From Lantana camara (taxonomy: Eukaryota; Streptophyta; Magnoliopsida; Lamiales; Verbenaceae): DNA of 64,000 nt. The translations under genes and the position numbers were made by a program. The notes beneath the pieces are model-generated. The model did no database searches. It was not told the DNA's origin and saw nothing but the letters and a program-made list of their open reading frames with translations. Where the stretch lies: the NCBI GenBank assembly GCA_037501455.1, contig CM074860.1, positions 54,136,501-54,200,500 of the forward strand, given 5' to 3'. Each line of letters begins with the position of its first letter. Position 1 is the first letter of the stretch. Below are positions 1 to 59,303 of this stretch, in pieces.

Positions 1-704
1 CTTTTTTTTTTACCTTATTTGCTGAAAGAGTGATGGTTGATTGATCATGTAATGTCTTGCTCTGTTTTCATTCAATATTACCCTGTTTTTTTTCACGTAA
101 ACTGCAGCAAATTTCCTTGTTTCTGCTGCGTGTGGTGAGATGGTTTTCAGACTTTTTTTGGTGAACATTTGCTGCCTTCTATTTCCTTGAATTGTTGGCT
201 TTAGTTGGTTAGAGTTTAGGTAGTTGTTTTGGCCTGGTTTGATTTCCATTTTCCTTCCCCTGTTTCGGTTTTTCTGCTGTTGCCGCCTGTTGCTGCTGTA
301 ACACTCTCCCCGGGCAGGGAGAGTTTGTACGTGGGAGTACCCGCGCTGCAGAAACCTTTGGCATCTTTTTACCGGGCCGGGGAAGGTTTCTTTGAGAAAT
401 CTACCTTGGCGGCTAGCCTTCTGCGTGGCAGCTTCTGTTTCTTCCCTTCTTTCTTCTGCTGCTTTATTTTCCTTCCTTTTTCCTTTGTTGTTCCTTCCTT
501 CCTTGTTTTACTGTGTGTGTGTCTGCCTGTTTAATTAGTGATCTGCTGCGGCTACTTCTTCCATTATTGCAGTGTGTGTGCGTGAGTATATCTATATATA
601 TATATATAGTTTGGTTTGTGTGTGCATGGTGTGCATGGTATTTATATATATAATATGTATCACAAGCATGCATTGTGTGTGTCGTATGTTTCTGAGTTTG
701 CATG
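1..704 (+). mobile_element. Element D, 5' LTR, first part
   Basis: The bases align closely with 39226-39930, part of the 3' LTR of the same element, so the window opens about 1.2 kb inside the 5' LTR of D. It is cut at 704 by element A and resumes at 32148. The GCATG at 700-704 is one copy of A's target duplication; the other is at 32143-32147. The stretch holds degraded GC-rich palindromes (307-416) and a short TA run (593-608). There is no coding capacity. Confidence 0.9.
307..416. repeat. Palindrome cluster in D 5' LTR (degraded)
   Basis: Four CCCGGGC-centred motifs begin at 307, 338, 370 and 402, spaced 31, 32 and 32 bp. They correspond to the better preserved set at 39530-39650. The second and fourth have lost most of their symmetry, and about 12 bp between the second and third is missing relative to the 3' LTR. 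Confidence 0.7.
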
Positions 705-3589
705 GGTAGTGCCCGGAGCGGTGGCCACCACATCCCCCGCACCTAAACCCGAACCCACATATGAAATGGATTTCCATACATGGGCTCAAGTCTGAGCGAA
801 CGGTGACCTATACCCACACACTAGGCTAAGCGGGGCTAAACTCGAACAGAGCGCGCAAATAAGCAAAACAGATCTGCGGAAGCAGTAAACAGGATCGAAA
901 GAGCTCTATAACTAACATATACATCATATACAATGGCCTCATGGCCCCAAAAGATCGATTATATACATCAAAAGTCCATAATTCTTCAGAAAACAATTCT
1001 GGAAACAATTACATATAAGAGTATCCAAAATGCAAGAAATACGAATGCATCACGACCTAGACACACAAGTACAAGACAAGACTCGCACTTCCCCGCCTAG
1101 CTCGGTACACCTGAAAGGGAAAGGAGAGGGTCAGTCTCACAACTCGACTGAGTGAGGGGCTTAACACACCCACACTTTAAATACGTATAGAGCATAGCAC
1201 AAATCAAAAGTGATAGTCATGAATCGAGGCTAGGGTTTTGCACACGAAAACCATTTCCCGAAGCTAATATTTAGTAGAAAAGCATCTATCTCGATTCATA
1301 ATCTATCAGTCATAACATAACCAAAAGCCCGGCGAGAACGGACTATCCCTTACTCCTTTAAACATAAATATCAAATCACAAATCCACCCTTGCATCCATG
1401 GTGTGTCGGGAATCAAACCCTAGCACCTACATTACCAAAAACATACGGGGTAGTTAACCCACGTTATGCCTTCCCCGGTTATCCCCCGAAGGCTCAAGAT
1501 ATCACGCCTTCCCAACCTCCCTAGGTCGCACGTGAATATCTCAAATGAGAACGGTGTACAGGGGTCAAACCCGGCGACCCCGTGGTCGACCCGACCCTTC
1601 CTTACCCACGTCTCCAGGGCCCACAAACCATATCAAACCAAAATCCCATCTTTCAGGGCACACTCGCTCAACATAACAAAAAGTACCAAAAGAGATTCGA
1701 AAATCAAGCTTATATATGCTTTTACTTATATCATTTCCATAAAGTCCAAATCTTCCACAAAATCATAAACATAATTTAAGCACTCATATTTAAGTATGTA
1801 TAACATATCTACATGCGAGTGAGAAATCATCATATTATAGGCCATAGGTTAATAGCTAATAATTCCTGACCTCACCTTAACAAAAGAGACAAAAGGTAGG
1901 ATCGAACGACAACCAACCACCTAAGCTTCGGGCTCTTGCGCAACTGGAAGAGGCTCTGAAACACAAGAGAAAGCAAGACCCGAGACTTAGACTCAAATAT
2001 GAACCAAATAGACGCTCGGCAATGCTTGTGAATGCAAAGAATGCAAATGAAACGCATGAACGTGACAAATAAATCCTACCAATTCTTATTCACATAATTC
2101 ATATCAAATAAGGCCATAAATTCAAAACAAGGTACATAACGCATAATATAACAAGCTAACAAGGCATACAAATCATAAACGAAGAAAGAAAACACAAATA
2201 AAAACAACGAAGCGATAAAAAGAGCAATTGCCGCCGTCATATTTTCAAATGACACGGCCGTGTTGGGTTTTAGTTCAAAATGGACACGGTCGTGTCCGAT
2301 TAAAATTAAATCAGGAGCTTAATACGAGACACTGACACGGCCGTGTTGAGTTGTAGTTCAAAATGGACACGGCCGTGTCCGGTTTTATAAAAATAATTTA
2401 CCCCAAGTCGAGAGGCTGACACGGCCGTGTCCAAAACATGTACAAAGCTGACACGGTCGTGTTGGCCCTTCATCTTCGAAAAAAAAAACCAGCAGCAACT
2501 GTAACTCTGCGCTAAAAACAGAGGAAGAAGCAGAGCAACACGCAACAACATCAAGCAACAACTTCAAACCACAAAACTCAAGCAAACCATGGCAAATCAC
2601 TTCATATGCAACATGTAATCTTCCAATCATCACAAAAGCTCAATAATCATCATATATTTCAAGAATTCTCATGCAAGAATTTAAATTCCATCAATGGAAA
2701 CTTCTACCACACTCATCCATATTCAAAAGCAAGACCATATTTTCATGTTAGGGGCTTAAGGGATCACATATATATCTTCAAATCAAAGCTTAAGTCCAAG
2801 AAACAAGGAAGATCATCAAACCTTCAATATACATGCCATGCTCCATAGTTACATCAAACATAGCTCAAACCATTGAATTAATAGCTTAAAATGATCATAT
2901 AATCATGTACATATCAAATACTATCTTACCCCTTGAAGATGCTGGAAGAAAATGGAGATTAGAGCTCAATCTCTCCCAAGGGTGAATAGTAACGGGTTTG
3001 AGCTTGAACTCCAAAGTTGCTACACCTTTTCCTCTTTTTCCTTGCTTGAACCGAGAATGGGAGTGGGAGGGATGGATATGCTGAGTTTTGGGGGAGTGTG
3101 GGCCCAAGCTTGAGGGTAATATGTCAAAATTTGAGGGACCAAAGTGCAATTAGGTGAAAGGTAGTCATATACGAGCGAGCTGAGTTTCCGGTCGGATTTC
3201 GGAGTACCAAATGAGCTTAAAAGGTTATGAGGCTTAGTCCATCAAACCCGAATCGTCGAAACGAGCTCAACGGTAGTGACGAAATTCAAATCCGAATTCC
3301 CGAGCTCAAAATACACACATTGGAACCTAAGTTGCGCTAAAAACGTTTTAGCCTCCTTTAGGTTCCAAACGAAACAAATAATTCAAAAGCTCAACAAATA
3401 GATTCGAAAACATATAACGAGCATAAACGAATCAATCCATAACAAATTACGTACATACTCAAATAAGAATCATTCGAATTCATAAGAAATATTTAAAATA
3501 AGAATTAAAAGAGTAAAGAATAAGAATTTAAATAATGTAAATCGCGCACATACGTCATACCTGTACGGTCTGAAAGTCGGGGTGTCACA
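705..3589 (-). mobile_element. Element A LTR1 (3'-most LTR)
   Basis: About 2,885 bp. On the minus strand it starts TGTGACACCCCGAC at 3589 and ends GGGCACTACC at 705. In element sense it holds: a splice-donor-like GGGTAAG (2925-2930); the palindrome cluster (2251-2463); a GAAGGC..GCCTTC hairpin near 1480-1515; a CAGTC/GACTG hairpin near 1131-1152; CTTTCAGGTGTAC then GCTAGGCGGG (1092-1101); and the conserved GCGGGGGATGTGG terminal block. No coding capacity; short ORFs here are chance. Confidence 0.93.
2251..2463. repeat. Six paired palindromes GACACGGCCGTGTC in LTR1
   Basis: Copies begin at 2251, 2283, 2334, 2366, 2418 and 2450. Successive distances are 32, 51, 32, 52 and 32 bp, so three pairs with a 32-bp pitch repeat every 83-84 bp. 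Core variation is limited to GGCC or GGTC and to the last base. Spacers inside two pairs share AGTTCAAAATG. Confidence 0.95.
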
Positions 3590-8287: not shown

Positions 8288-9915
8288 TGTAGCGCCCGGA
8301 GCGGTGGCCTCCACATCCCCCGCACCTAAACCCGAACCCACATATGAAATGGATTTCCATACATGGGCTCAAGTCTAAGCGAACGGTGACCTATACCCAC
8401 ACACTAGGCTAAACGGGGCTAAACTCGAACAGAGCACGTAAATAAACAAAACAGATCTGCGGAAGCAGTAAACAGGATTGAAAGAGCTCTATAACTAACA
8501 TATACATCATATACAATGGCCTCACGGCCCCAAAAGATCGAGTATATACATCAAAAGTCCATAATTCTTCAAAAAACAATTCTGGCAACAATTACATATA
8601 ACAGTATCCATAATGCAAGAAATACGAATGCATCACGACCTAGACACACAAGTACAAGACAAGACTCGCACTTCCCTGCGTAGCTCGGTACACCTCAAAG
8701 GGAGGGAGAGGGTCAGTCTCACAACTCGAATGAGTGACGGGCTTAACACACCCACACTTTAAATACATATAGAGCATAGCACAAATCAAAAGTGATAGTC
8801 ATGAATCGAGGCTAGGGTTTTGCACACCAAAACCATTTCCCGAAGCTAATATTTAGTAGAAAAGCATCTATCTCAATTCATAATCTATCAGTCATAACAT
8901 AACCAAAAGCCCGGCGAGAACGGACTATCCCTTACTCCTTTAAACATAAATATCAAATCACAAATCCACCCTTGCATCCATGGTGTGTCGGGAATCAAAC
9001 CCTAGCACCTACATTACCAAAAACATACAAGGTAGATAACCCACGTTATGCCTTCCCCGGTTATCCACCGAAGGCTCAAGATATCATGCCTTCCCAACCT
9101 CCCTAGGTCGTACTTGAATATCTCAAATGAGAACGTGCACAGGGGTCAAACCCGGCGACCCCGTGGTCGACCCGGGCCTTCCTTACCCACGTCTCCAAGG
9201 CCCACAAACCATATCAAACCAAAATCCCATCTTTCAGGGCACACTCGCTCAACATAACAAAACGTACCAAAAGGGATTCAAAAATCAAGCTTATATATGC
9301 TTTTACTTATATCATTTCCATAAAATCCAAATCTTCCATAAAATCATAAACATAATTTAAGCACTCATATTTAAGTATGTATAACATATCCGCATGTGAG
9401 TGAGAAACCATCATATTATAGGCCATAGGTTAATAGCTAATAATTCTTAACCTCACCTTAACAAAAGAGACAAAAGGTAGGATCGAACGGCAACCAACCA
9501 CCTAAGCTTCGGGCTCTTGCGCAACTGGAAGAGGCTCTGAAACACAAGAGAAAGCAAGACCCGAGACTTAGACTCAAATATGAACCAAATAGACGCTCGA
9601 CAATGCTTGTGAATGCAAAGAATGCAAATGAAACGCATGAACTTGACCAATAAATCCTACCAATTCTTATTCACATAATTCATATCAAATAAGGCCAAAT
9701 ATTCAAAACAAGGTACATAACGCGTAATATAACAAGCTAACAAGGCATACAAATCATAAACGAGGAAAGAAAACACAAATAAAAACAACGAAGCGATAAA
9801 ACGAGCAATTGCCGCCGCCATATTTTCAAATGACACGGCCGTGTTGGGTTTTAGTTCAAAATGGACACGGCCGTGTCCGATTAAAATTAAATCAGGAGCT
9901 TTATACGAGACGCTG
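8288..9915 (-). mobile_element. Element A LTR2, first part (cut by B)
   Basis: This aligns with LTR1 from its 3' end inward and stops at CGCTG (9911-9915), where element B begins; the LTR resumes at 23355. It contains GCTAGGCGGG-type sequence near 8675, the CAGTC/GACTG hairpin (imperfect here) near 8715, and the first two palindromes (9832 and 9864, 32 bp apart). The third palindrome is split: its first G is 9915. Confidence 0.92.
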
Positions 9916-10853: not shown

Positions 10854-11080
10854 GGGAACGGCCCTTCCCAACCCCAGTTCAAAACTGGAAAGGTCGTTCC
10901 CATGATGCTGAGACAGTAGGCCAGCGAGACTGGGAACGGCCCTTCCCATTTTGGCCTTTGAGCCGGAAGGGCCGTTCCCAGCTAAAACGTTTTCCCTTTT
11001 AAGAAAATGCTGTTGCGTTTTCTGTAGGCCATGGGAACGGCCCTTCCCATTTTCAAAGGGAAGCCGGAACGACCGTTCCC
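10854..11080. repeat. Six paired palindromes GGGAACGGCCGTTCCC (B 5' LTR)
   Basis: Start points, aligned on the GGCC centre, are 10854, 10886, 10932, 10964, 11033 and 11065. Distances are 32, 46, 32, 69 and 32 bp: three pairs, each exactly 32 bp apart, although the palindrome is unrelated to that in A. Several copies are imperfect (CCCTTCCC for CCGTTCCC). The 3' LTR repeats the same spacing at 21720, 21752, 21798, 21830, 21899 and 21931. Confidence 0.94.
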
Positions 11081-12504: not shown

Positions 12505-12733
12505 CGGTTGCAAAACCGGGTCTCTAGTGTCGTTTCTTGTGAGTCTAGGTCGCACGGCATAGGAACTAATTGTCAATCTGAGAGTCTTGCATTGTTATTT
12601 GATACTTGAACCTACTTGACTTACTTGAATTTGGGGTGACTTGTTGAGTTTTGAATTCTTGGGCAATTTGTGAGTTATTTGCACACATTGCCACTTACTA
12701 ACCGAACATGCATGATAGTGACTTGATTTCAGG

Positions 12734-14227: not shown

Positions 14228-17200
14228 TGTAGCACCCGGGATGACAGGCGCCACATCCCCCGCACTACAAGTCTAGTCCACACGTGAAATGGATAATCCA
14301 AGCATGAACCGGACTCATAGCGAATGGGAGACCAAAATAAAAATATTCTAGCTAGGTGGAATCTAACCCTGTACCAAATAAATCAAGAATACGTAGAATG
14401 TAAAGCGGAAGCAATAACGTATAATTCAAAATTTTCAACCATGGTTACACGCCCAACCATTCCAATACATAATTTAAATCCACCAAGCATCCTAACGACG
14501 GGTTTAACTAGGCATGCAACCTGTCCAGAATTCAATAGCCAACAATAATCATAATTGGCACACAGGCCCAATACATAGCGGAAATACAATTAAATCATAA
14601 AAGAATGTAAAATGTGACTCGAGTGTACAAGTGACTCGACAAGAGAATAAAACTTGACTTCCGCCTAGCAAAACCTGCAAACAATTGAAAGGTGGGAAAG
14701 AGGAGTCAGTCTCTAGAAGACTGAGTGAGCAGGAGCTATACATATATAGAGAAACATGCGCATGCAAGTCATAACTCCCGAGTAAGGTTTTATTTAGAGT
14801 TAGTTCCCAAAAAGGGCAAGAGAATAGCTGGGCAATACTCGGATTTTATGACTAATCATATTAAATTCATTAAGTTCATAATTCATACATAAACATAAAG
14901 GCTCGGAGAGTGAGCGTGCATCATCTCCAACCAAACTCCGACCGTGTACGACAAATATCATTAATACTTGAAATACGTGATCATGCAATATATTATAATA
15001 CATACAAATCATATAACATAACATAAGACATAGTCGTTTGGGCAATCCATGTCCCGGCCTTCCCGCACGGTGCATAACAATCATAACATAATCATAGTCA
15101 TAAAATAAGTTCCAACCTTCTTCCTCCGGCGGTGGACGGGCTTGCAAGACCCGGCCACCTCATACATAATGGCTAGTGAGGTACATGAATCCTCAAAAGC
15201 CCGACTAGCGTTTTCTCATCAAAACTCCTGACGAGATCCGTTTCGACGTAAAATGGTTGCAACTAGTGCACGGGTTCACCGTCGGCCCTTGCCTCCCAGG
15301 CTTACCACGATACACTAAGCTCCGGGGCCCGTGAACATATCATACATACATAATCTCGCCAAAACATTTGATTCATACGAAGCATAACATATTTCATAAT
15401 CCTTGTGAAAATATTTACTCGATAAATTAATTTAAAAACCATATATAAATATACCTTAGGCTTTTGGCCAAAACTTATCACATAAGGTTGTAGGGTTTAA
15501 TACATATCTAGAACGAAAACACCCTCACCTGGAATACCACGAGACATAAAACATAATTAATGCGGGTGCCTATTCAACTTGGAAGTCTCCGCCCTGGAAA
15601 CTAACTGTACAGGAGAAGGAACAATGTGTACTCGTGAGAAATGACTCAATATGAAATCACATAGACGCACGGCATGTTATGCACATGATATGAGATGCAT
15701 AAGAAGCATGAATCGTGTGATGGGGTCATATAATCAAGTAATTCATTCAAAATGTTCAATACATGGTGGTTTCATATTCATGTGCTTCATATGTTTCATA
15801 TTTTGTATCAAATCGAGCCATAAGCTTCATACTTTAATCATAACTCATACTATAATATATTTACAATGCATGCGATTCATAAATGAAGCGAGAAGTTAGC
15901 ATATGAGGCCAATAAATGAAGGAACAATTCATGCATGCAAGCTAGAGAGCATTTGAAGGCATATTGGTTCATAATATACAAGTTAACACCTAAAATAACA
16001 TATTAACAAAATATACAAGTCATGGAAGAAGCTAACCACAACATACAAAACAATTAAACCAAGCAAACCATTCATGCATGCATAAAAGTAGCACATCACG
16101 TTCATATTGTCATTTCACGTATATGCATTGAATTCATAGCATAAAATTCATAAAAATATCAAGATATATCACATATAATAAATTAAGGAAGTATATAATA
16201 CATTCAAACCACATATGGAGTCCGAGGAAGTGGAGAGAAAGCAAGAAAACGGATTGGGCAAGCTTTTAGTGAGAGCTGACAGTTTTTGGTAATGCACAAG
16301 CTGTAAAGAATTTAACATATCTTGAGTTCTAGAATTTGGAATCGAGTTTTGCTTGTTGGGAATGAAACTAGACACATAGACCTTTCGAAGGATATATGGC
16401 ACGGATCCTGGTTTAAAACCAGGTGAAAATGGCGAAGGCCCGAAGTTGGGTGATTGCAGATTGTCGGAAAAGTAGCGACACCAAAAAGAATTAATAATAT
16501 ATCACAAATGGGAAAAGATATTGAAGTGATTCCAATTGGAGAATATTCTAAACTTCAAGAGGTTTCCGTGGGTTAAAAAATCAGGTCCTTCCGAGTTCGG
16601 ACGAGGGAGTCGCGGCCGTGACAAAATTGCACTGAAAATCAGTCGCGGCCGCGACTGAAAATTGGCCAAGTTTCGAATTAAAAATGGTCGCGACCACGAC
16701 CAAAAATGGTCGCGGGCGCGACCCCCAATTCCAGCAGCTGCGTTAGGCGACGGGAAAACAGGGCAAAGGCGGAAATTAGCTTCAAGAAGGCCAAAGGAGC
16801 TCCCAAATCACCCATAATCACACCACAACCACCAAATACAACATATATGCACATATTACTCATAAATCATGAATCAAATCATCAAATTTTATAAACCCAC
16901 AAGTATATATATACAAGTATACACATTTATATACACACATATACATACACAATTCTTACATCAAAATTCAAACCAACAAGCAAAGAATTCATAGATTATC
17001 ATGTAATCATGCATATACACACAATATTACAAGTTGTCCAACAAGAATCTCAACCCTAATCATCACCCATCGTACATATCTACACACACATACCTTGGAA
17101 GAAGAAGGAGAAGAGAGGGGTTGAAGAAGAGAGTGACTTGAGCTTGATTCTTGGAGGAAAAATGGATGAACACCTTGTATTCTTGCTCCTTGTTGATCGA

Positions 17201-17664: not shown

Positions 17665-17669
17665 CTGCC

Positions 17670-20600: not shown

Positions 20601-20746
20601 TGGATAAGAAGTTTTAGGAATTAAGAAACCGGAGGATTCCCATGGTTAATGTTCTTTGGAGAAGTGATAAGACCGAAGAAGCCACGTGGGAGACCGAAGA
20701 CAAAATGAGACGGTTCCATCCAGAGTTGTTCCCTTCCGATCAGTGA
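17670..20746 (+). pseudogene. pol: Element B pol: protease end, RT, RNase H, integrase, chromodomain-like tail
   Basis: It resumes in the frame lost at 14227. RT runs from about 17940 ([12 protein letters not shown]) through [13 protein letters not shown] and FIDDIL (18410-18420). RNase H has [11 protein letters not shown] (about 18845) and DALSRK (about 19168). Integrase has [11 protein letters not shown] and HCLTC (19450-19580), TMDFASGLP (about 19660), VSDRDPRF (about 19845) and a DGQSERL motif (about 19943). The end has EATWETEDKMRRFHPELF and a natural TGA at 20744-20746. Breaks: a one-base deletion near 18185 with TAG at 18194-18196, TAG 20009-20011, TAA 20234-20236 and TAG 20615-20617. 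In RNase H, TAQKSL replaces the usual TDHQSL, so an active-site Asp is lost. Confidence 0.93.
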
Positions 20747-20763
20747 ATCTGGGGACCAGATTC

Positions 20764-20780
20764 TTTTAAGGAGGGAGGAT
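20764..20780 (+). promoter_or_regulatory. Polypurine tract of B
   Basis: TTTTAAGGAGGGAGGAT lies directly against the 3' LTR start TGTAACG at 20781. It is the plus-strand primer site. Confidence 0.87.
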
Positions 20781-23349
20781 TGTAACGCCCCAGCTTTCGG
20801 CATTTCAGGTATGTACGACACGTGTGCGTTTGAGAGTTAGCTTTTAATTATTAATTGTTCATTTCTTTAATTTTCCATAGCATGACATAATTTTATAAAA
20901 ATTATATTTTTGACATTTTATTGAAAATTCATATCATATCATATTTATCGGATATATTGAACGTGATTGCTATGTGAATTATTTTCCCGAATGTGATTTA
21001 ATTCTTTTATGGCCTTAATTGATCATTTTCATGAATTAGGGATCTAATTGCATTGGACTTTATTGATCATTTAATATTGGATTTGAACCTCATTGCATGA
21101 CTTAATTAATAGAAGGATTTAATTGCAAATTGGCCATCTCTTCCCCTCTCTTGAGCAGCATATCAAGTACCATTACATCCCATTTCATACCACATTTCAT
21201 CTTTGCTCCATTTTCTTCCCTTTGCCAACCGAATCAAACCCTCACTTTGAAGAGAGGAGATTTCATCATTTAAGCATCAATTTGTGGGACTTGTGGACAT
21301 AGAAGCATCATCATCATCACTTCTTCATCCTAGCTTCCATTTCTTTCATTTGAGGTATTTTTGGAGATTTCATGATTTTCTTGAATATGTGATATATAGG
21401 GCTTGGTATTGGCTTGAGTGAATTGTGTATTTGTTGTTGGAAACATGGTTGTGATCATTAAGCTCATGGTTGATGCATATAACTTGTGATTTTTGGATTT
21501 AGAGCATGAGTGTTGGTATGGGTTTCAAATGATGGATTATTGATGATCTAACATGGAATTATGTGTTTAAATGAGTTGTTGTTGATCTATATGTATGCTA
21601 GCATATGTGTTGCATCAAATATGTGCTTTACATCTTGAATTTGATCCATTTTTGGTGGTTGATTGTTGCTATGCCATTGCTGCTCTGTTCTGCTCTGCAT
21701 ACAGCTGCTCTCGTATTTTGGGAACGGCCCTTCCCAACCCCAGTTCAAAACTGGAACGGCCGTTCCCATGATGCTGAGACAGTAGGCCAGCGAGACTGGG
21801 AACGACCGTTCCCCTTTTGGCCTTTGAGCCGGAAGGGCCGTTCCCAGCTAAAACGTTTTCCCTTTTAAGAAAACGCTGGAGTGTTTTCTGTAGGCCATGG
21901 GAACGGCCCTTCCCATTTTCAAAGGGAAGCCGGAACGGCCGTTCCCAAAGTCCAGAAAGTGCCCAAAATTCACTGCATAAAATTGTATTTTTAGCACCTC
22001 GTTCCGACGGCTTCCTTGACCCCTAATTGCTATTATATGACTGAATACATGTCGAAACGCAATATTTTTATGGTACATTGTATTTTTCCCGTCGTCTCGT
22101 TGCATTTCCACCGTTCGTCATATTTGGTACATTTTGAGTCGTGTTTCACGGACAATTGTCTTTCTTGCACAGACCAGCTTCCTGGTGACGAGGAGCAGGC
22201 CCCGTGAGCTGTTTCCTTGGATATTTTTGGGTCGTTCAGGTGAGGTTTAATTTTAGATACATAGGACCCGTACAACCGTATGTGAAGTTTTAAGCCAAAA
22301 CCTATCTTTATACTTATAATTTTCAAATGAGATTGGTTTTCAAATGTTTTACCGAACTATTGGAGGGATTGATTGATTGATTGATTGTTTTGGCAAGTAT
22401 TGTATTGCACTATGGGCCCGAGGGTAGTGACTCGAGCCAACCGGGAAAGCACGGGCTGATGGGTAACTCGAGAGCTATCCTCACCAATTGGGATGAACCC
22501 TGAACCCTCTAGGAGATTAGGGGAGGAAGGAGTTCCGGGCTTAGGGATTCATGTACCCTCTGCCCAGATTGATTGGATGGTGGGGCCTTGCAATCCCACC
22601 ATCACCCGGAGGAAGAAGGCGTTATTGAACTTGCTAATTGTGCACAGTAATAAATTGCTTGATCACCTAATCACCTAATAATTGATTGATTGATTGATTG
22701 TACACAGTCGGTGTAAGGTTGGAGAATTGCCCCACTCGCCGGGCCACAATTGATTGTATTGAATTGATTAAATTGCAAATGAATTAGTTGTAACCTCGGG
22801 CGATGGAATCTTTTATTTTACTAAATTGTATTGTTTCCCAAAAATTATTACCTGAGATTATGACTTGCATGTTGGTGCGCTTATATTTATTTATACCCCT
22901 CGCTCAGTCTGTGTTGGACTGACACCTCAACTTTTCAGTGTTTTGCAGGGCGTGCTAGGCGGGAATTTAGAGTCTAGTGGTCTTTAAATTTGGGTCTAGC
23001 ACACTTCATTCCCACATTTTGTTTATGTATAGCTTGGGAATATTTTGTATCATGCCTTGTTACCTATTTTGTTGGGAGATGATATTGTATTGATAGTGTG
23101 AATGTTGGTATCTATAAGTAAATAAATAAATATGGTATCTATACGTATCGAATGAATGTTATTGCTTCCGCTTTTTAATACTCTGACTTGATTGCTGGTT
23201 GGTTCTAAATTGAGGGTACCCGCCTAGCCTTGAGTCATTTTATTGTCTCCCGTTCGCTATAGCTTTGATTCATGTATGGATTGTCCATTTCATATGTGAG
23301 TTGGGGCTATAGTGCGGGGGATGTGGTGCCTAGCGTTCCGGGTGCTACA
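20781..23349 (+). mobile_element. Element B 3' LTR
   Basis: 2,569 bp, near-identical to 9916-12483, with the same donor-like site, palindrome cluster (21720-21946), TTGCAA hairpin (22576-22603), GACTGA hairpin and GCTAGGCGGG. Differences from the 5' LTR are notably dense inside the palindrome cluster (about 11 of roughly 46). It ends GGGTGCTACA at 23349. Confidence 0.95.
21720..21946. repeat. Six paired palindromes (B 3' LTR)
   Basis: Starts at 21720, 21752, 21798, 21830, 21899 and 21931 give distances 32, 46, 32, 69 and 32, identical to the 5' LTR despite base changes in the motifs themselves. Confidence 0.94.
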
Positions 23350-24609
23350 TGCTGACACGGCAGTGTTGAGTTTTAGTTCAAAATGGACACGGCCGTGTCC
23401 GGTTTTATAAAAATAATTTGCCCCAAGTCGAGAGGCTGACACGGCTGTGTCCAAAACATGTACAAAGCTGACACGGTCGTGTTGGCCCTTCGTCTTCGAG
23501 AAAAAATGCCAGCAGCAACAGTAACTCTGCGCCAAAAACAGAGGAAGAAGCAGAGCAACACGCAACAACATCAAGCAACAACTTCAAACCACAAAACTCA
23601 AGCAAACCATGGCAAATCACTTCATATCCAACATGTAATCTTCCAATCATCACAAAAGCTCAATAATCATCATATATTTCAAGAATTCTCATGCAAGAAT
23701 TTAAATTCCATCAATGGAAACTTCTACCACACTCGTCTCTATTCAAAAGCAAGACCATATTTTCATGTTAGGGGCTTAAGGGATCACATATATATCTTCA
23801 AATCAAAGCTTAAGTCCAAGAAACAAGGAAGATCATCAAACCTTCAATATACATGCCATGCTCCATAGTTACATCAAACATAGCTCAAAACATAGAATTA
23901 ATAGCTTAAAATGATCATATAATCATGTACATATCAAAGTCTATGTTACCCCTTGAAGATGTTGGAAGAAAATGGATATTAGAGCTCAATCTCTCCCAAG
24001 GGTGAATAGTAACGGGTTTGAGCTTGAACTCCAAAGTTGCTACACCTTTTCCTCTTTTTCCTTGCTTGAACCGAGAATGGGAGTGGGAGGGATGGATATG
24101 CTTAGTTTTGGGGGAGTGTGGGCCCAAGCTTGAGGGTAATATGTAAAAATTTGAGGGACCAAAGTGCAATTAGGTGAAAGGTAGTCATATAGCAGCGAGG
24201 TGAGTTTCCGGTCGGATTTCGGAGTACCAAATGAGCTTAAAAGGTTATGAGGCTTAGTCCATCAAACCCGAATCGTTAAAACGAGCTCAACGGTAGTGAC
24301 GGAATTCAAATCCGAATTCCCGAGCTCAAAATACACACATTGGAACCTAAGTTGCGCTAAAAACGTTTTAGTCTCCTTTAGGTTCCAAACGAAACAAATA
24401 ATTCAAAAGCTCAACAAATAGATTCGAAAACATATAACGAGCATAAACGAATCAATCCATAACAAATTACGTACATACTCAAATAAGAATCATTCGAATT
24501 CATAAGAAATATTTAAAATAAGAATTAAAAGAGTAAAGAATAAGAATTTAAATAATGTAAATCGCGCACATACGTCATACCTGTACGGTCTGAAAGTCGG
24601 GGTGTCACA
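23350..24609 (-). mobile_element. Element A LTR2, second part
   Basis: Starts with B's duplicated TGCTG and continues the LTR interrupted at 9915. Palindromes at 23354, 23386, 23438 and 23470 give distances 32, 52 and 32, and the third palindrome of this LTR is the one cut by B. Joined with 8288-9915 the LTR is about 2,883 bp, matching LTR1. It ends GGGGTGTCACA at 24609. Confidence 0.92.
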
Positions 24610-29309: not shown

Positions 29310-32142
29310 TGTAGCGCCCGGAGCGGTGGCCACCACATCCCCCACACCTAAACCCGAACCCACATATGAAATGGATTTCCACACATGGGCTCAAGTCTAA
29401 GCGAACGGTGACCTATACCCACACACTAGGCTAAGCGGGGCTAAACTCGAATAGAGCGTGCAAATAAACAAAACAGATCTGCGGAAGCAGTAAACAGGAT
29501 TGAAAGAGCTCTATAACTAACATATACATCATATACAATGGCCTCACAGCCCCAAAAGATCGAGTATACACATCAAAAGTCCATAATTCTTCAAAAAACA
29601 ATTCTGGCAACAATTACATATAAGAGTATCCAAAATGCAAGAAATACGAATGCATCACGACCTAGACACACAAGTACAAGACAAGACTCGCACTTCCCTG
29701 CCTAGCTCGGTACACCTCAAAGGGAAAGGAGAGGGTCAGTCTCACAACTCGACTGAGTGAGGGGCTTAACACACCCACACTTTAAATACGTATAGAGCAT
29801 AGCACAAATCAAAAGTGATAGTCATGAATCGAGGCTAGGGTTTTGCACACCAAAACCATTTCCTGAAGCTAATATTTAGTAGAAAAGCATCTATCTCAAT
29901 TCATAATCTATCAGTCATAACATAACCAAAGGCCCGGCGAGAACGGACTATCCCTTACTCCTTTAAACATAAAAATCAAATCACAAATCCACCCTTGCAT
30001 CCATGGTGTGTCGGGAATCAAACCCTAGCACCTACATTACCAAAAACATACGGGGTAGCTAACCCACGTTATGCCTTCCCCGGTTATCCACCGAAGGCTC
30101 AAGATATCATGCCTTCCCAACCTCCCTAGGTCGTATGTGAATATCTCAAATGAGAACGTGCACAGGGGTCAAACCCGGCGACGCCGTGGTCGACCCGGGC
30201 CTTCCTTACCCACGTCTCCAAGGCCCACAAACCATATCAAACCAAAATCCCATCTTTCAGGGCACACTCGCTCAACATAACAAAACGTACCAAAAGAGAT
30301 TCGAAAATCAAGCTTATATATACTTTTACTTATATCATTTCCATAAAGTCCAAATCTTCCATAAAATCATAAACATAATTTAAGCACTCATATTTAAGTA
30401 TGTATAACATATCCGCATGCGAGTGAGAAATCATCATATTATAGGCCATAGGTTAATAGCTAATAATTCCTAACCTCACCTGAACAAAAGAGACAAAAGG
30501 TACGATCGAACGGTAACCAACCACCTAAGCTTCGGGCTCTTGCGGAACTGGAAGAGGCTCTGAAACACAAGAGAAAGCAAGACCCGAGACTTAGACTCAA
30601 ATATGAACCAAATAGACGCTCGGCAATGCTTGTGAATGCATAGAATGCAAATAAAACGCATGAACGTGACAAATAAATCCTACCAATTCTTATTCACATA
30701 ATTCATATCAAATAAGGCCATAAATTCAAAACAAGGGACATAACGCATAATATAACAAGCTAACAAGGCATACAAATCATAAACGAAGAAAGAAAACCCA
30801 AATAAAAACAACGAAGCGATAAAACGAGCCATTGCCGCCGCAATATTTTCCAATGACACGGCCGTGTTGGGTTTTAGTTCAAAATGGACACGGTCGTGTC
30901 CGATTAAAATTAAATCAGGAGCTTAATACGAGACGCTGACACGGCCGTGTTGAGTTTTAGTTCAAAATGGACACGGCCGTGTCCGGTTTTATAAAAATAA
31001 TTTACCCCAAGTCGAGAGGCTGACACGGCCGTATCCAAAACATGTACAAAGCTGACACGGCCGTGTTGGCCCTTCATCTTCGAAAAAAAATACCAGTAGC
31101 AATAGTAACTCTGCGCCAAAAACAGAGGAAGAAGCAGAGCAACACGCAGCAACATCAAGCAACAACTTCAAACCACAAAACTCAAGCAAACCATGGCAAA
31201 TCATCATATATTTTAAGAATTCTCATGCAAGAATTTAAATTCCATCAATGGAAACTTCTACCACACTCATCCATATTCAAAAGCAAGACCATATTTTTAT
31301 GTTAGGGGAGTAAGGGATCACATATATATCTTCAAATCAAAGCTTAAGTCCAAGAAACAAAGAAGATCATCAAACCCTCAATATACATGCCATGCTCGAT
31401 AGTTACATCAAACATAGCTCAAAACATGGAATTAATAGCTTAAAATGATCATATAATCATGTACATATCAAATACTATCTTACCCCTTGAAGATGTTGGA
31501 AGAAAATAGAGATTAGAGCTCAATCTCTCCCAAGGGTGAATAGTAACCGGTTTGAGCTTGAACTCCAAAGTTGCTACACCTTTTCCTCTTTTTCCTTCCT
31601 TGAACCGAGAATGGGAGTGGGAGGGATGGATATGCTGAGTTTTGGTGGAGTGTGGGCCCAAGCTTGAAGGTAATATGTCAAAATTTGAGGGACCAAAGTG
31701 CAATTAGGTGAAAGGTAGTCATATACGAGCGAGGTGAGTTTCCGGTCGGATTTCGGAGTACCAAATGAGCTTAAAAGGTTATGAGGCTTAGTCCATCGAA
31801 CCCGAATCATCGAAACGAGCTCAACGGTAGTGACGGAATTCGAATCCGAATTCCCGAGCTCAAAATACACACATTGGAACCTAAGTTACGCTAAAAACGT
31901 TTTAGCCTCCTTTAGGTTCCAAACGAAACAATTAATTCAAAAGCTCAACAAATAGATTCGAAAACGTGTAACCAGCATAAAAGAATCAATCCATAAAAAT
32001 TACGTACATACTCAAATAAGAATCATTCGAATTCATAAGAAATATTTAAAATAAGAATTAAAAGAGTAAAGAATAAGAATTTAAATAATGTAAATCGCGC
32101 ACATACGTCATACCTGTACGGTCTGAAAGTCGGGGTGTCACC
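29310..32142 (-). mobile_element. Element A LTR3 (5'-most LTR)
   Basis: About 2,833 bp, roughly 50 bp shorter than LTR1 because of a deletion near 31203. It keeps a donor-like GGGTAAGATAG (GT at 31482-31483), palindromes (30855-31067), and the other LTR1 motifs. The outer edge reads GTGTCACC instead of GTGTCACA, followed by the GCATG duplication at 32143-32147. Confidence 0.92.
30855..31067. repeat. Six paired palindromes in LTR3
   Basis: Starts at 30855, 30887, 30938, 30970, 31022 and 31054: distances 32, 51, 32, 52 and 32, identical to LTR1. Confidence 0.95.
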
Positions 32143-32147
32143 GCATG

Positions 32148-38023: not shown

Positions 38024-39945
38024 TGTAACGCCCCGACTTTTCAGTCGTAAAGGTATGACGTATGTGTTTACCAATTTGCGCGAATTAATTGTTTATACGT
38101 GGTTTATATTTAATTTTATTATAAATTGTTATTATTTTATTTTATTTTATTTTCTTTAATATCATTTCGTTAATTTAGTGAATTAAGTTGTTAATTAAGT
38201 GTTTAGTATTAATTAAATTATAACCTTAATTATCTGAATTAATTTCCTTTAATGTATGAAATTATTAAGGTTATGCGCATGAATGTTTATTTGTGCTTCG
38301 TTCTTATACGAAATGATATCGAAATGTCATGGAAATTTATTATGTCATAAATTTATGTGTTATGAACATGTCTATATGCTCGGTTTATGTTTTCGAAATC
38401 GTTTGACGTGGTAACGAATTTAATATGAATTGTGGAACCAAATCGGGGGCTAACGAGCAATTAGCACACCCATGGTTCTGTATGTGATATCTTGAGCTCG
38501 GGAACTCGGATTCGAGTTCCGTCAACTTTGTTGAACTCGTATCGAAGATTAGAGTTTAATTAACCTAGCCTTATAATTTTCCGGAATCATTTGAACCTTC
38601 GAAATCCAACCGAAAAACGAAACGACACCAAAACTGTCAAATTTTACTAAAATGGCCCTATCTTGTTCAAACCTTAACCAAATTAACTATGGTTGGACTC
38701 CTTGTAACCCTAGTTCAGCCCACTATCTTCCCATACTCATCCCCAATTGAAAATATCCTCACACAATCAAGAAAACTCAGCAAAAATCCCAGCATTCCAG
38801 TTTTCCGGTCACTCTGCCATTTCAGGAGATTTTGGAGCTCAAATCTCTTTCAACTTTCATCCAATCAACAAGGTGAGTTAGGATTATGTTATACATGCAT
38901 CTCTGGTCATTGTGATCCATTCATCCCTAATTCTAAGTCAATTTTCATGTGGTTTTGATGATTTGAGTGAATAGTTAGGTTTTAGAGTGTTTTGATGAAT
39001 TCTTGAATTCATTTGGCTTATAACTTGTTTCGGTGCTATATTTATGATTCTTTTCCCTCATTTATGACTGAGTATACTTGTGTTAGTTGGTGGTTAAGAG
39101 TTGGGTGAGTTACCATTAATGAATTTGTTATGGATTGAATGAATTTTTAACTGAATTTTTCTCTCCCTCACGTCTTGAACTGGTGCTAGCTTTTGTGATT
39201 TATTTTGACGTCAAATGATACTTCTTTTTTTTTTACCTTATTTGCTGAAGGAGTGATGGTTGATTGATCATGTCATGTCTTGCTCTGTTTTCATTCAATA
39301 TTGCCCTGTTTCTCTTCACGTAAACTGCTGCAAATTTCCTTGTTTCTGCTGCGTGTGGTGAGATGGTTTTCAGGCTTGTTTTGCTGAACATTTGTTGCCT
39401 TTTATTTCCTTGAATTGTTGGCTTGAGTTGGTTAGAGTTTATGTGGTTGTTTTGGCCTGGTTTGATTTCCATTTTCCTTCCCCTGTTTCGGTTTTTCTAC
39501 TGTTGCCGCCTGTTGCTGCTGTAACACTCTCCCCGGGCAGGGAGAGTTTGTACGTGGGAGTACCCGGGTGGGTACTCCTGCTGCCAAAACCTTCTGCATC
39601 TTTTTACCCGGCCGGGGAAGGTTTCTTTGAGAAATCTACCCGGGCGGGTAGCCTTCTGCGTTGCAGCTTCTGTTTCTTCCCTTCTTTCTTCTGCTGCTTC
39701 GTTTTCCTTCATTTTTCCTTTGTTGCTCCTTCCTTCCTTGTTTTGTTGTGTGTGTGTGTGTGTCTGTTTAATTAGTGATCTGTTGCTGCTATTTCTTCCA
39801 TTATTGCAGTGTGTGTACGTGAGTATATCTATATATATATAGTTCGGTTTTGTGTGTGAATGGTGTGCATGGTATTTATATATATAATATGTATAACATG
39901 AATGCATTGTGTGTGTAGTATGTTTCTGAGTTTGCATGCATGTAA
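38024..39945 (+). mobile_element. Element D 3' LTR, first part
   Basis: Starts TGTAACGCCCCGAC and runs to the TGTAA (39941-39945) that was duplicated when element E inserted; the LTR resumes at 50342. It contains a strong donor-like AAGGTGAGT (GT at 38873-38874), a palindrome cluster (39530-39650) and a TG run (39747-39762). Total LTR length is about 3,596 bp. No genes. Confidence 0.93.
39530..39650. repeat. Palindromes TACCCGGGCGGGTA in D 3' LTR
   Basis: Four copies aligned on their centres start at 39530, 39561, 39605 and 39637, spaced 31, 44 and 32 bp. The second is extended to GAGTACCCGGGTGGGTACTC. The paired arrangement is the same as in A, B and H, with a different sequence. Confidence 0.9.
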
Positions 39946-40121: not shown

Positions 40122-41296
40122 TGTAACGCCCCGTGTTTTCACAAGTGCAGGTAAAGGTTACGTGCGCATTTACATTTAATTATTTGATTTTATATTTTGA
40201 TTCATTAATCGAATTCGTTTCTAATTTGATTTATTTGTTTAAAATTTATATGAATTCCAATGTGTGCTATGAATATATGAATGAAATTATGAGAATGTGA
40301 ATTTCTTGAATTCGGTGTTGTTTGACATGTTTCGTGTAATCCGTGGGCTTGATTGTGACTTATTTGAACGTTTCGGAGTCAATTGGAAATTGAGTTTGGG
40401 CTTAATTGCCACTTTTTGAAAGTTTAGGGACCTATTTGAATAATAGGCAACCCTGAACGGTTTTCGTGATATCTTGAGCTTCGGACCTCGAAATCGAGAT
40501 CCCTAAATGGCGTTGAACTTTTTTCGACGATACCTATCCATTAAACTTGACCTTATACTTTTTTGATACCGTTTGGACCTTCGACAACGAATCTTTCCAC
40601 AACCTCGTTTCTTTTAACTTGTTTGAACCGTTTCTTAAACAAACCGGACTTGGATCGACCCGTAACCTATCCATTTATCACTAAATATCAGCATTCCTCC
40701 TCCTTGCTTCCACTTTTGATCGATCAGTTCATCATCTCAAGAGACAAGGGATAAGCTCCAAGAAAACCCTCCATTTTGATCATCCAAGCTTTGAGCTCAA
40801 GCTTAACCAATCCTCCATCTCCTTTCAAGGTAATTAGTGATTTGGAACCTCCATCTTCTCCTCTATCTTTTCATCTATGTATAGCTTGGCATGAGTGAAG
40901 GATTCATGTGTTTTGAATATGAGCATGAAATGAGGGTTTAATCTTGAACTTTGGATTCTCTTGGTTTAATTGGGAATTGATGCATGAAAAATGATCCTTG
41001 TAACTTCCACATCATTTCTATATCTTTAAATCTCATGTTGGATATGTATTACATGATGTGCCATTGATGAAGCTTGAAGCTTCCATGAATGAAAGCTTGT
41101 TGTTGGATGATCTTTTACCAAATTTGGATATAAATTCTTGCATATATGAATGGATTGCATGATTTGCATGAGTTTTGTGGCTTGAAACCATGTCTAAGTG
41201 TACCTATGAGCTTCCTTATTGCTGCCCCTGCTTTTTCAAGCTTCTCCCTCGCGAAACAGAGCTTATGCTCTGTTTTATCTTTTAAGACGACGAGCT

Positions 41297-41510
41297 GACA
41301 CGGCCGTGTCAACTTTGAAGTGAAAATGGACACGGCCGTGTTGGGCTCTCGACTTGGGAATTTTATTAATTTTAACCTCGGACACGGCCGTGTTCAAATG
41401 CTTTGAAAACTTAACACGGCCCTGTCAAGCCCTGGACTTTGAATTTTTTGATTTTTAAACCTCGGACATGGCCGTGCCCGTTCCCTTTGAAAACTCAACA
41501 CGGCCGTGTC
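41297..41510. repeat. Six paired palindromes GACACGGCCGTGTC in solo LTR H
   Basis: Starts at 41297, 41329, 41381, 41413, 41465 and 41497. Distances are exactly 32, 52, 32, 52 and 32 bp, a strict 84-bp super-period. The motif is the same as in A although the rest of the LTR does not align simply. Copies 4-6 carry changes (AACACGGCCCTGTC, GACATGGCCGTGCC, AACACGGCCGTGTC). Confidence 0.95.
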
Positions 41511-42273
41511 ATTTGAAATGACAGCTTTGGGGGAACTCTTTTATTGCCTGTTTTGCGTTTATTGCTCGTATTTGTGAATTGTATGCAACGTGGATCTATT
41601 AAAGCTGTGATTTATGATTGATATATGATATTGATAATCATACGAATGAAAGTATGAAAGTTATGAACGATATGAACGGGAACGAATACGATTTTATCGT
41701 ATATTGAATGAAACTTGGTGAATTATATGCTTAATGGGATTCCATGATGTTCATGAACATAATTGGACATGCTTTTATGTTTCAAGCATTCAATAACATG
41801 TGTCATTGCATTGCTGAGCGTCTAATGTGGTCATAATCGAGTCTCACACTACCTTTGTCACACAGATATTGTTCCAGTGGGTGGCGAGGGTGAGCAGTGA
41901 GAGCTTTGTCGGATTCTTTTGTCTACCAGGTGAGTTTTTCTTCTATTAGTTAAAATATGACCCCAAACCACCTAATGTGTAAGATTTGAGCCAAAATTAT
42001 ATATATGTATATATCAAGTTTTAACGAGCATATGTTTTAAATGGAAGCCTTTATTATGATTATCCTACCAAAAGTTTTGGCGAGTAATGAATGTTCACAA
42101 TGAATGGGGGCCCGGGACTTAATGTATTGGTGAACCGGGGAAGCATTGGCTGATGGGAATCCACATATACTAGTTCCAACAATTTCGGTAACCTAGACTT
42201 CACTAGGAGATTAGTGAATGAAAGGGGACCCGCGCTTTTGGGGATTCATGTACCCCTCTAGCATTAATGAATG

Positions 42274-42302
42274 AGGGTTCGGGCCTTGCAAACCCGTTCC
42301 CT
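42274..42302 (+). other. TTGCAA-loop hairpin in H
   Basis: AGGGTTCGGG pairs with CCCGTTCCCT around a loop CCTTGCAAA. Four outer and four inner pairs differ from the B stem while pairing is kept, and the loop core is unchanged. Confidence 0.75.
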
Positions 42303-43703
42303 ACCCGGAGGAAGAAGGTGGTATATGAATGATCGAATGAATGATCTAATGAATGTGCACGAAAGAGTGAATGCATGAACGAATAAATGAATGAATGATT
42401 AATAAATTACACGAGGTGGTGGTTGGAGATAATGCACGCCCTCTCGCCGGGCCACAAATGACCTAATGAATGAAATGAATTGTTATAATCCTATTCGTTG
42501 TATTTATTTCCCCCTTGGGAAAAATGCTTCTAAACCTCGAATAAGGATTATAGCTTGCATGTATGTGTTTAAATTCCGCAGTATTATGATATTATGCCTA
42601 TTTTTATACCCACCAGTCTGTGTAAGACTGAACCCGTAGTTGTGTCAGTTTCTTTTTGCAGGAAGGGATGCTAGGCGGGATACAAGTCTGAGAGAGAGTC
42701 TTGCATAGTGTCTAGCATTTCTTATCTTTACATACATTTGCTTCACTCTTGATCATTTTGGATTTTGTATTAGTATGGAGCGGGCATGTAATTGGTACCT
42801 ATACGTATCTTACTTGAACGCTAGTTGTTGGTACATAGAGCGTATAGCTCAATATATGAAATACGTGTTGGTATCTAGAGCATCTAACTCAGTATATGGT
42901 TTATGAATTATTGCTTCCACTTTTCTGTTGCTCTGATTGTTGGTATTGTTGGGGTTTAAGTTATAGGCTAGTCCCGCCTGGCTTAGCGAGTGTGTATATC
43001 TCCGTTCGCTATGATTTGGCACGTGTATGGAAATCCATTTCATATACGGGTCGGGTCATGGTGCGGGGGATGTGACGTCTCGCGCTCGGGCGTTACAGGA
43101 AGCAAGGAGTTCTAGAAATATAAAATTTCAAGATTAACATATACATCAAGTGATCAAATATACGTAGCCAAAACGATTCATATCTCCAACATAAAATTCA
43201 TAAAATGATTAATTCAATAAATACAAGACCAAAATGAAATGCAATGCACCTCACACGACCTATACCCAAAAGTGAGACTCGAACGACCCACTTCTCCGCC
43301 TAGCTCGTGCTCAAAAGACCTGCAAACTAAAAGTGGGAAAAGGAGAGGTGTCAGTCATATCTCGACTGAGTGAGGGGGGGCTAACGCACACCCACACACT
43401 ATACATATAAATAGCAAAGCCCGAAAAAGATAAAGGTTATGAACCGGGAATAGGTTTTGCACACCAAAACATTTTCAAAGAACATTACATATCATATACG
43501 TATACAATTCATATCCTTAACAAATACATTAACATAAAGTATCTATTCCCGTTTCATAATACAACCATTTCATTAAGCTCGGCGAGTACGAGCGGAAATC
43601 CCATCCTGGGCTCCTCATTACATTACATTATAAAACAGAAATCACATTCAATCCCCTTCTTCCGTGATGGAAGAGTCCGTCGACCCTAGCCATCCATTAC
43701 ATT

Positions 43704-43825
43704 ATACATTCCTCGAGGGGTGATTAACCCACACGAGTGCCACTATACATTCCTTGAGGGAAGATTAACCCACACGAGTGCCATTACATTATACATTCCT
43801 TGAGGGGTAGCTAGCCCACACGAGT
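43704..43825. repeat. Minisatellite in E LTR
   Basis: Three imperfect units of about 40-47 bp, each with ATACATTCCT, GAGGG and CCCACACGAG. The same array is in the right LTR at about 48285-48412. Confidence 0.85.
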
Positions 43826-47515: not shown

Positions 47516-49428
47516 TGTAGCACCCGGAACGCGGGCCGCCACATCCCCCACACCTAAACCCGAACCCGTATATGAAATGGGAAGTCCATACACGAGCTTA
47601 AGTCTAAGCGAACGGGAGACCACACACTCGCTAGGCTAGGCGTAGCTAAAACTAAACCAGAGCGCGAGATAAATAGAATAAATAGCGGAAGCAAGGAGTT
47701 CTAGAAATATAAAATTTCAAGATTAACATATACATCAAGTGATCAAATATACGTAGCCAAAACGATTCATATCTCCAACATAAAATTCATAACATGATTA
47801 ATTCAATAAATACAAGACCAAAATGAAATGCAATGCACCTAACACGACCTATACCCAAAAGTGAGACTCGAACGACCTACTTCTCCGCCTAGCTCGTGCT
47901 CAAAAGACCTGCAAACTAAAAGTGGGAAAAGGAGAGGTGTCAGTCATATCTCGACTGAGTGAGGGGGGCTAACACACACCCACACACTATACATATAAAT
48001 AACATAGCCCGAAAAAGATAAAGGTTATGAACCGGAAATAGGTTTTGCACACCAAAACATTTTCAAAGTACATTACATATCATATACGTATACAATTCAT
48101 ATCCTTAACAAATACATTAACATAAAGTCTCTATTCCGTTTCATAATCCAACCATTTCATTAAGCTCGGTGAGTACGAGCGGAAATCCCATCCTGGGCTC
48201 CTCATTACATTACATTATAAAACAGAAATCACATTCAATCCCCTTCTCCGGTGATGGAAGAGTCCGTCGACCCTAGCCATCCATTACATTATACATTCCT
48301 CGAAGGGTGATTAACCCACACGAGTGCCATTATACATTCCTCAAGGGACGATTAACCCACACGAGTGCCATTACATTATACATTCCTCGAGGGGTAGCTA
48401 ACCCACACGAGTCCTCCCCGGTTCATTCCGAAGGCATCAAGAGCACCGCGACTTCCCCAACCTCCCTAGGGTCGTACGTAGTACCTTGGATGGAGAACGT
48501 GCACAAGGGTCATAACCGGCGACCCCATGGTTGTCCCGGGTCCCCTTTACCCACATCTCCGGGGCCCAACATTACCATTACATTACCTTACCTTACCTTA
48601 CCTTTCCTTTCAATGCATTCTCGCTCATTACAAACCATTAACATTACGAACATTAGCATTACATTTCCATAAACATTAAACATTCATTAAAACATAAGCT
48701 TATATATGCTCATAGATATAGCTCTTTCAAAAGTCAAAACTTGATAACAAGATCATAAACATATTGTACATTACACATATTTAACTATATATATAATATA
48801 TAGTCGCATGCGGGCTAGAAAACGAACATTTAAGGGTCTTAGGTCGCCTAACTAAAAAGAAAAGAACCTAAACCTCACCTCTGAACAAAAGTTTAGTGTG
48901 GTGCGAGAAAACGATCCCAAACAACTTAAACTCCAGGCACGACTCCTCCCGGAAGCACCCCTGAGACAAACAAATGTAATTCTAAAGACTTAGACTCAAA
49001 CATGTACCACTTAGACGCACGGCGATGCCTATGAATGCAATGAATGCAAGGAAAGTGGCATAAGGTGACATTTAAAACGTTCAAGTTCATAACAAATAAA
49101 ATTCATATCAAATGAATCCATAAAATTAATTCAAGACATTTAAAATATAATATCACATGTTTTCATAACACATAAGTCATGAGCAATTAAAAGAAGGCAC
49201 CTAAAGAGCATTAAATGAATTACGAAAATCAGGCATGCGAGATCGAATTATTTAAAATCATAACATATATAAATTTAATATAAACATTTCTATAATTAAA
49301 ATCAAAATAAATAATGTACATTACATTATATATAAAGCATATAATATAATACATATATATACATACAACTCCACGTACACACACAAATACATGCATGCAC
49401 ACACAAATACACAATTTACATTTACATA

Positions 49429-50336: not shown

Positions 50337-50341
50337 TGTAA

Positions 50342-59015: not shown

Positions 59016-59303
59016 AATCCATCCTCGAATTCACAGCTCGCCCGAAAACAAACAAGGAGAGAGCCCCGTCTCTCACAGGCAACAAGGAGAGTACCCCGTC
59101 TCTCGAACAACAATGAGAGAACCCCGCCTTTCGCAAGCAAAGAGAGCATCCTGTCTCTCGAACACGATAAGAGAACCCCCGTCTATTTCAAAGAACTAGA
59201 GAACCCCGTCTCTCGAACAACAAGACAAGGGAGCCTTCCATACTCCCGAGTCAAACCACAAGAAATAGTTACATTAAAGAACAATCGCCAAGGAAAAGTA
59301 TCT
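59016..59303 (-). repeat. Internal tail of G with hairpin-forming tandem repeat
   Basis: Between about 59045 and 59250 there are about seven imperfect units of 25-32 bp built on AACAA..GAGAG..CCCCGTCTCTC. Each unit pairs GAGAG with CTCTC across an ACCCCG-type loop. I see no pol domain here. The segment is cut by Fp at 59304; TATCT (59299-59303) would be the Fp target copy. Confidence 0.75.

Follow-up and report, generated by a model that had tools for sequence, protein, structure and literature searches.

Palindromes with a CGG-CCG core recur in pairs about 32 bp apart in the LTRs of probable gypsy retrotransposons

Retroviruses carry self-complementary sites in their leaders for dimerisation and packaging, and the anti-silencing motif arrays of the VANDAL/VANC system are sequence-specific, lie in non-coding parts of plant transposable elements and diverge by family. 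Closer to the arrays described here is the repeated motif (RM) of the LTRs of Sireviruses, which are Ty1/copia elements; this motif is palindromic, has a CGG-CCG core and family-specific arms, forms CpG islands, and is termed Sirevirus-specific relative to the classic elements with which it was compared (Bousios et al. 2010, excerpts of PMC2829016). A regulatory role is proposed for the RM in these excerpts, in which the protein that reads it is not named. In maize Sireviruses an excess of small RNAs is reported at the palindrome clusters (excerpts of PMC5311732 and PMC10760457).

Our results concern one window of one genome, the window being the whole 64-kb stretch of DNA that was analysed, and this is plant-like DNA dense with nested LTR retrotransposons. 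Element E (705-32142, minus strand) is a three-LTR tandem (LTR-internal-LTR-internal-LTR) between copies of the flanking duplication GCATG at 700-704 and 32143-32147, with LTR copy 1 at 705..3589 and LTR copy 3 at 29310..32142, both minus, the latter computed on the slice 29310-32144 and thus with two flanking bases included. Its first internal stretch runs from protease through RT-RNaseH-integrase zinc domain and SH3_Tf2-1 (97.7 bits) to a weak chromo match (23.2 bits, under the Pfam cut-off of 25.1), which is the gypsy order. E is a gypsy retrotransposon, probably a chromovirus of the Tekay type; this domain order was read in E, whereas the H and I LTRs have no coding sequence to classify. 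Element F (9916-23349) splits the middle LTR of E between the flanks CGCTG (9911-9915) and TGCTG (23350-23354), which have one difference, and the I LTR (minus, starting at 17664) is nested in F. The solo LTR H (40122..43097, plus) lies inside an LTR of element K, and its description as a solo LTR in the earlier note is borne out by its terminal sequences (TGTAACGCCC...GGGCGTTACA at 40122 and 43097), by a 5-bp target duplication, GGAAG, and by an uninterrupted homologous site at ~47687. K has the target duplication TGTAA at 39941-39945 and 50337-50341, and element J (plus) has its two LTRs split by E and by K, its 3′ LTR starting at 38024. E and K are related but distinct; each occupies one of the two J LTRs, at positions only 7 bp from each other, which suggests an insertion hot spot, GCATGCATGTAAC. 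The insertion point of F coincides with the edge of an E palindrome at 23354; as the preference of LTR elements for palindromes is weak overall and not significant for Tekay in the excerpts of PMC6911290, it does not account for the position of F beside a palindrome.

The H array (41297..41510, plus) consists of six RACACGGCCGTGTY-like palindromes in three pairs, and the six GACACGGCCGTGTC-like palindromes that had been described there are present at 41297, 41329, 41381, 41413, 41465 and 41497, at distances of 32, 52, 32, 52 and 32 bp. Half of the copies had been said to carry base changes; the exact 14-mer is found in only one of the six, the other five having 1-2 changes, and four of the six keep the inner 12-mer ACACGGCCGTGT intact. 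With up to three mismatches allowed, the whole window holds 26 matches to the 14-mer against 0.61 expected (maximum in 100 shuffles: 3), and 24 of them lie inside the arrays of the H and E LTR copies; the other two (16609 and 54201) have three mismatches each, and the one at 16609 falls in the I array.

An array peculiar to H is ruled out by the arrays in E, F, J and I. E has six palindromes in both copy 1 (2251..2463, minus) and copy 3 (30855..31067, minus), with a sense spacing of 32, 52, 32, 51 and 32, and in its middle LTR there are two palindromes 32 apart on one side of F (9832..9877, minus) and four at 32, 52 and 32 on the other (23354..23483, minus), these halves being kept unjoined. 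The array layout is common to E and H, whose LTRs align in parts only, at 70-71% in the array region. The F array, which turned up both as a direct repeat and in the palindrome list, has six GGGAACGGCCSTTCCC-like palindromes at 32, 46, 32, 69 and 32 in the 5′ LTR (10854..11080, plus) and six sites of identical spacing in the 3′ LTR (21720..21946, plus). Four quasi-palindromes with an ACCCGG-like core, spaced 31, 44 and 32, form the array of the J 3′ LTR (39526..39651, plus), of which the other J LTR holds a decayed copy (303..440, plus), and the I array (16608..16723, minus) has four GTCGCGGCCGCGAC-like palindromes at a sense spacing of 22, 45 and 33, or 25, 42 and 33 with the centre that the scan assigns to the imperfect second site. 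Of the 26 sites in E1, H, F2, I and J, 19 have a left half-site whose last three sense letters are exactly CGG. Outside the core the letters differ between families, are common to E and H, and are alike within arrays except in J, where the first two palindromes have outer arms unlike each other, each self-complementary. Over the window there are 58 strong hairpins or palindromes against 10-19 in ten shuffles, many of the 58 being copies in repeated LTRs, and 34 have at least 50% G+C against 2-9 in the shuffles. Since palindromy was what first drew attention to J and I, their spacing counts as independent evidence but their symmetry does not.

As read from these five families, the constant is the palindrome pair about 32 bp, or three helical turns, apart, with the distances between pairs left free, and not an 84-bp super-period. 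Pairs at 31-33 bp make up all three pairs in each of E, H and F, both pairs in J and one of two in I, the exception being an I pair at 22-25. The summed autocorrelation at 31-33 bp, taken over the 1000 bp after the donor-like site (in K, from LTR position 600), is higher than in any of 100 shuffles for seven copies from five families (E1, E3, H, F1, F2, J and I); F2 and J are the only copies in which it is also the strongest lag, the peaks elsewhere being at 83 in E1 and E3, 39 in H, 78 in F1 and 25 in I. No such signal at 31-33 bp is found in the K and N LTRs. Element Q also beats all shuffles at 31-33, but its 32-bp peaks fall in a TA-rich repeat and its signal is therefore discounted. With E, F, J and I each counted once, 9 of the 16 distances between neighbours lie within 31-33; H was omitted because the layout that it has in common with E was likely inherited. 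Random placement put at least nine distances in some 3-bp band in 5e-6 of 200,000 trials and a 31-33 distance in all four arrays with a frequency of 0.0034, and the strictest test, which asks that every array have a distance in one shared 3-bp band, gave P 0.11. The strict 32/52 alternation of the earlier note does not carry over as a rule, since the between-pair distances of F, J and I differ, and these same distances (46 and 69 in F, or ~4.4 and 6.6 turns at 10.5 bp; 44 in J; 45 in I) rule out its proposal that all six centres, and sites in general, face one side of the DNA. As these distances vary, only the members of a pair are in phase. What survives of the suggestion that the spacing is under selection is the pair distance, which does look constrained, and not the alternation, which fails across families.

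We read these arrays as belonging to the Sirevirus RM kind, though carried by gypsy elements, less numerous in copies and arranged in a pair geometry. They resemble the RM, as given in the excerpts of PMC2829016, in their palindromes with a CGG-CCG core, in arms that are family-specific and much alike within an element (the J outer arms differ among sites), in their clustering in LTRs and, less clearly, in their CpG richness. The carriers of the RM are Ty1/copia, whereas the arrays here belong to Ty3/gypsy, as judged from the domain order of E, which is not that of a Ty1/copia Sirevirus. In 12 of the 13 RM consensus sequences CGG and CCG stand 4-6 bases apart, the 13th being without the core, whereas here they mostly form a contiguous CGGCCG. 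The RM is described with at least eight copies per element (linker plus 3′ LTR), two Sireviruses having 3 and 4 in the LTR, whereas E, H, F, J and I have 6, 6, 6, 4 and 4 palindromes per LTR, internal regions being covered here by the window-wide palindrome scans only. The RM is drawn upstream of the TATA box; here TATA-like strings occur on either side of the array (E, H, I and J) and splice-like flanks suggest a leader. The excerpts describe no pair spacing for the RM, and here the pairs are ~32 bp apart. CpG per 100 bp in the array and in the rest of the LTR is 7.5 and 3.4 in E1, 7.9 and 3.4 in E3, 6.5 and 3.1 in H, 5.2 and 2.4 in F1, 6.1 and 2.3 in F2, 12.8 and 2.6 in I and 5.5 and 2.3 in J; the densest 200-bp CpG windows lie off the array in F1 and J, at most touch it in F2, and in H are tied with another stretch. 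A kind of CGG-CCG array described as peculiar to Sireviruses (excerpts of PMC2829016) is met here in several gypsy families, where the geometry of its pairs is nearly fixed. Among the matches listed in a search of open-licence papers, none was on palindrome arrays of gypsy LTRs by its title or the start of its abstract, and among the matches listed for CACGGCCGTG none was a plant-LTR paper by its title. The maize Sirevirus cis-region (Bousios et al. 2016, as rendered in excerpts of citing papers) is likewise an LTR regulatory palindrome cluster with strong predicted structure; small-RNA evidence exists for that region, and the arrays here are described from sequence.

The reading that we favour, and that we hold to have an about even chance of being right, is that the arrays form a cis-regulatory part of the LTR in which a dimeric DNA-binding factor would occupy paired sites, and of the roles offered in the earlier note a dimeric DNA-binding protein fits best. 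The palindromes, their pair spacing, their differing arms and their place in the LTR are observed; the letters of sites and spacers change by family and the pair distance mostly stays, and this points to a paired protein-binding site in a control region. The array would be a cis-acting LTR control region in a group of Ty3/gypsy, probably chromovirus, retrotransposons, in which each 14-16 bp palindrome would most likely be the site of a homodimeric protein that reads the CGG|CCG core. The functional unit would be a pair of sites about three helical turns apart, placing two dimers on one face of the DNA where they could cooperate, and two or three such pairs would follow in a string at loosely set distances. 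We infer the DNA binding and the cooperativity, as we do a role in transcription or in resisting silencing. Paired sites are favoured by the return of the 31-33 bp distance in five families, by the F short spacers of one length and unrelated sequence, and by the presence of this palindrome kind in Sirevirus LTRs, with the regulatory role proposed there. Also counted for them is that palindromes are kept while spacers differ: between E1 and H, 43 of 92 spacer bases differ and 8 of 84 palindrome bases (42 and 8 for E3 and H), the comparison being of the four spacers of equal length, with the fifth (38 against 37) omitted. Outside the 14-16 bp core, symmetry falls to about the chance level in E (7/24), F (6/24) and I (4/16), as for a bounded binding site, and complementarity beyond the core is above chance in J (12/16, with a J core length set at 6, a choice favouring J) and in H (11/24). 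Over the five families 40 of 104 such pairs are complementary, where two controls give 32.3 and 31.6 and reach the observed count in 118 and 65 of 2000 draws, and this excess, mostly of J and H, hints at structure there. Counted against paired sites are this complementarity beyond the core, the lack of a 31-33 signal in K and N, the few copies in which 31-33 is the top lag (F2 and J), the P of 0.11 in the strictest test, the weakness of the indel test given below, the unlike outer arms of J, which would be odd for one binding protein, and the I pair at 22-25.

The regularity could also have come about neutrally, by the tandem copying of a palindrome-bearing unit and its inheritance with no selection on spacing, which we consider unlikely. 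H does resemble a tandem repeat of 84 bp that has decayed: Tandem Repeats Finder gives it an 84-bp period at 41330-41511 with 77% matches, and its long spacers are 75% alike, so that the statement that its spacers are not a clean repeat was right in part. The units of a simple 84-bp tandem repeat would be alike over their full length, and H comes close to this (long-spacer identity 0.75), whereas E and F do not: the E long spacers have an identity of 0.56, and the F long spacers are unequal in length with an identity of 0.33, against shuffled means of 0.46-0.50. Recent 84-bp duplication as the whole story is ruled out by these E long spacers and by the F short spacers, which are at shuffle level. 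The second and third short spacers of E are 0.89 alike, so some duplication is younger; the first has an identity of 0.43 and 0.33 with the other two. In F the short spacers are equal in length with mutual identities of 0.33, 0.43 and 0.48 (shuffling the short spacers of H and E gives 0.46 on average), and because they are unrelated at one length simple tandem duplication does not explain the pair distance. The simple 84-bp duplication considered in the earlier note covers part of H, then, but not F, with its unrelated short spacers, nor E, with its unrelated first one. Neutral copying also sits badly with the return of the pair distance in families with other palindromes, and with spacers that diverge as palindromes are kept. 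Weighing substitutions against indels in the E and H spacers, a comparison suggested in the earlier note, was suggestive only of constrained spacing: the background of 24 indels per 451 substitutions over seven LTR comparisons (ratio range 0.019-0.112) predicts ~5 indels and one net change is seen, with P ~0.04, or ~0.5 at the lowest ratio, in a test that is weak since three of the seven comparisons have one copy in common and paired indels can cancel. This weakness and the P of 0.11 in the strictest spacing test leave room for neutral duplication.

Also unlikely, in our judgement, is that the arrays act in RNA, lying in the transcribed leader, probably in its intron, where the palindromes would form hairpins or self-pairing sites through which unspliced RNA dimerises and is packaged. 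The arrays do seem to lie within a transcribed leader, to judge by their flanks: donor-like sites stand ~360-650 bases ahead of each array, matching a 9-letter consensus at 8-9 letters in H, I and J and at fewer than 8 in E and F (in H, AAG|GTAATT at 40827..40835, plus, LTR position 709, a sequence match only), and acceptor-like strings follow the arrays; a block near GCCGAGCGTCTA is common to those of E, H, I and J, recurs in K and N, and is absent from F. Six LTR families have a second donor-like string (AAG|GTGAGG, CAG|GTGAGT or close) less than ~100 bp past the acceptor-like string, at LTR positions 1715 in E, 1809 in H, 1460 in F, 2137 in I and 1838 in N, and at 50865 in J; a small leader exon possibly lies between the two. 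The sense RNA of the array folds far better than its shuffles in H (z -6.0), E1 (-6.1), F2 (-9.6), J (-5.5) and I (-6.5), with none of 200 shuffles as good in each case, and when a 150-base window is slid along roughly the first 2 kb of each of these LTRs, z is lowest in the array; every DNA palindrome, however, also folds as RNA. The RNA dimerisation that had been proposed gains from J and I, where the sense strand is lower in energy (-74.8 against -62.7 and -68.4 against -65.1), but not from E1, E3, H, F1 and F2, where the antisense is lower. In J the arms covary, and the first J pair is the sole one with a clear preference for complementarity within the palindrome; mismatch counts between pair partners and within palindromes are of one order in E, H, F and I. 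The non-standard pairs of the sense palindromes (A.C 21, G.U 8 and other 22, of 334) are unlike the residue of selection on sense RNA, 9 of the 21 A.C pairs being one outermost E pair counted across several copies. No Rfam family matched the window at gathering thresholds. The three-turn distance is more DNA-like than RNA-like, single-stranded linkers needing no fixed spacing of 32 nt. Very unlikely is a third alternative, in which the hairpin palindromes are kept for some regulatory reason and matter mainly as sources of small RNAs, as targets or by-products of host silencing; the small-RNA excess on maize Sirevirus palindrome clusters (excerpts of PMC5311732 and PMC10760457) speaks for it, and it leaves the pair distance unexplained.

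Paired sites for a dimeric factor may likewise be set beside other known systems. The arrays are like those of VANDAL/VANC in having specific motifs in non-coding parts of the element that diverge between families; VANDALs are DNA transposons with a dedicated VANC protein (excerpts of PMC5735166 and PMC10398659), unlike the LTR elements here. No VANC-like protein was identified in the 10 of 20 ORFs of at least 150 aa that were scanned, three of the ten being without a Pfam match. The BARE dimerisation and packaging signals (excerpts of PMC3735527) are comparable as signals in retroelement RNA; from these and from retroviral signals the present arrays differ in an exact three-turn spacing that is more typical of DNA, and in that they are known from DNA. 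Pattern searches for an E-type pol gave 5 matches in a viral contig collection and 20 in a genome contig collection, none of them confirmed, and the paired-palindrome pattern gave none in the former and seven stretches in the latter, all with bacterial record titles and, to judge by their coordinates, none at 32-bp spacing. A broader proposal, which we regard as doubtful but worth stating, is that gypsy chromoviruses and copia Sireviruses independently came to rely on CGG-CCG palindromes and that a single class of plant factor reads these, the gypsy unit being a pair three turns apart whose geometry is kept while the outer letters are swapped; the array would lie in an intron of the LTR leader and not ahead of the promoter. 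If this paired-palindrome code is true, lineages would change the key and not the shape of the lock. Should a single host factor serve the two superfamilies, these abundant groups of plant elements would have a dependence in common. A pair 32 bp apart could be used as bait, with phase-shifted pairs as the control.

Further repeats were seen in the window. Inspection by eye suggests weak hairpins at distances of 31 and 33 in N and Q; the autocorrelation scan did not register them and they were left uncounted. Q also has GAGAGA......TCTCTC quasi-palindromes every 27-30 bp at 59051-59224, apparently at the 3′ end of an internal region and outside the LTR. The K LTR has three tandem units of 41-46 bp (43694-43825 and 48281-48412), with no palindrome pair signal, and the N LTR has a lone perfect 20-bp palindrome, TCGAGGGTGCGCACCCTCGA, at 61645-61664.
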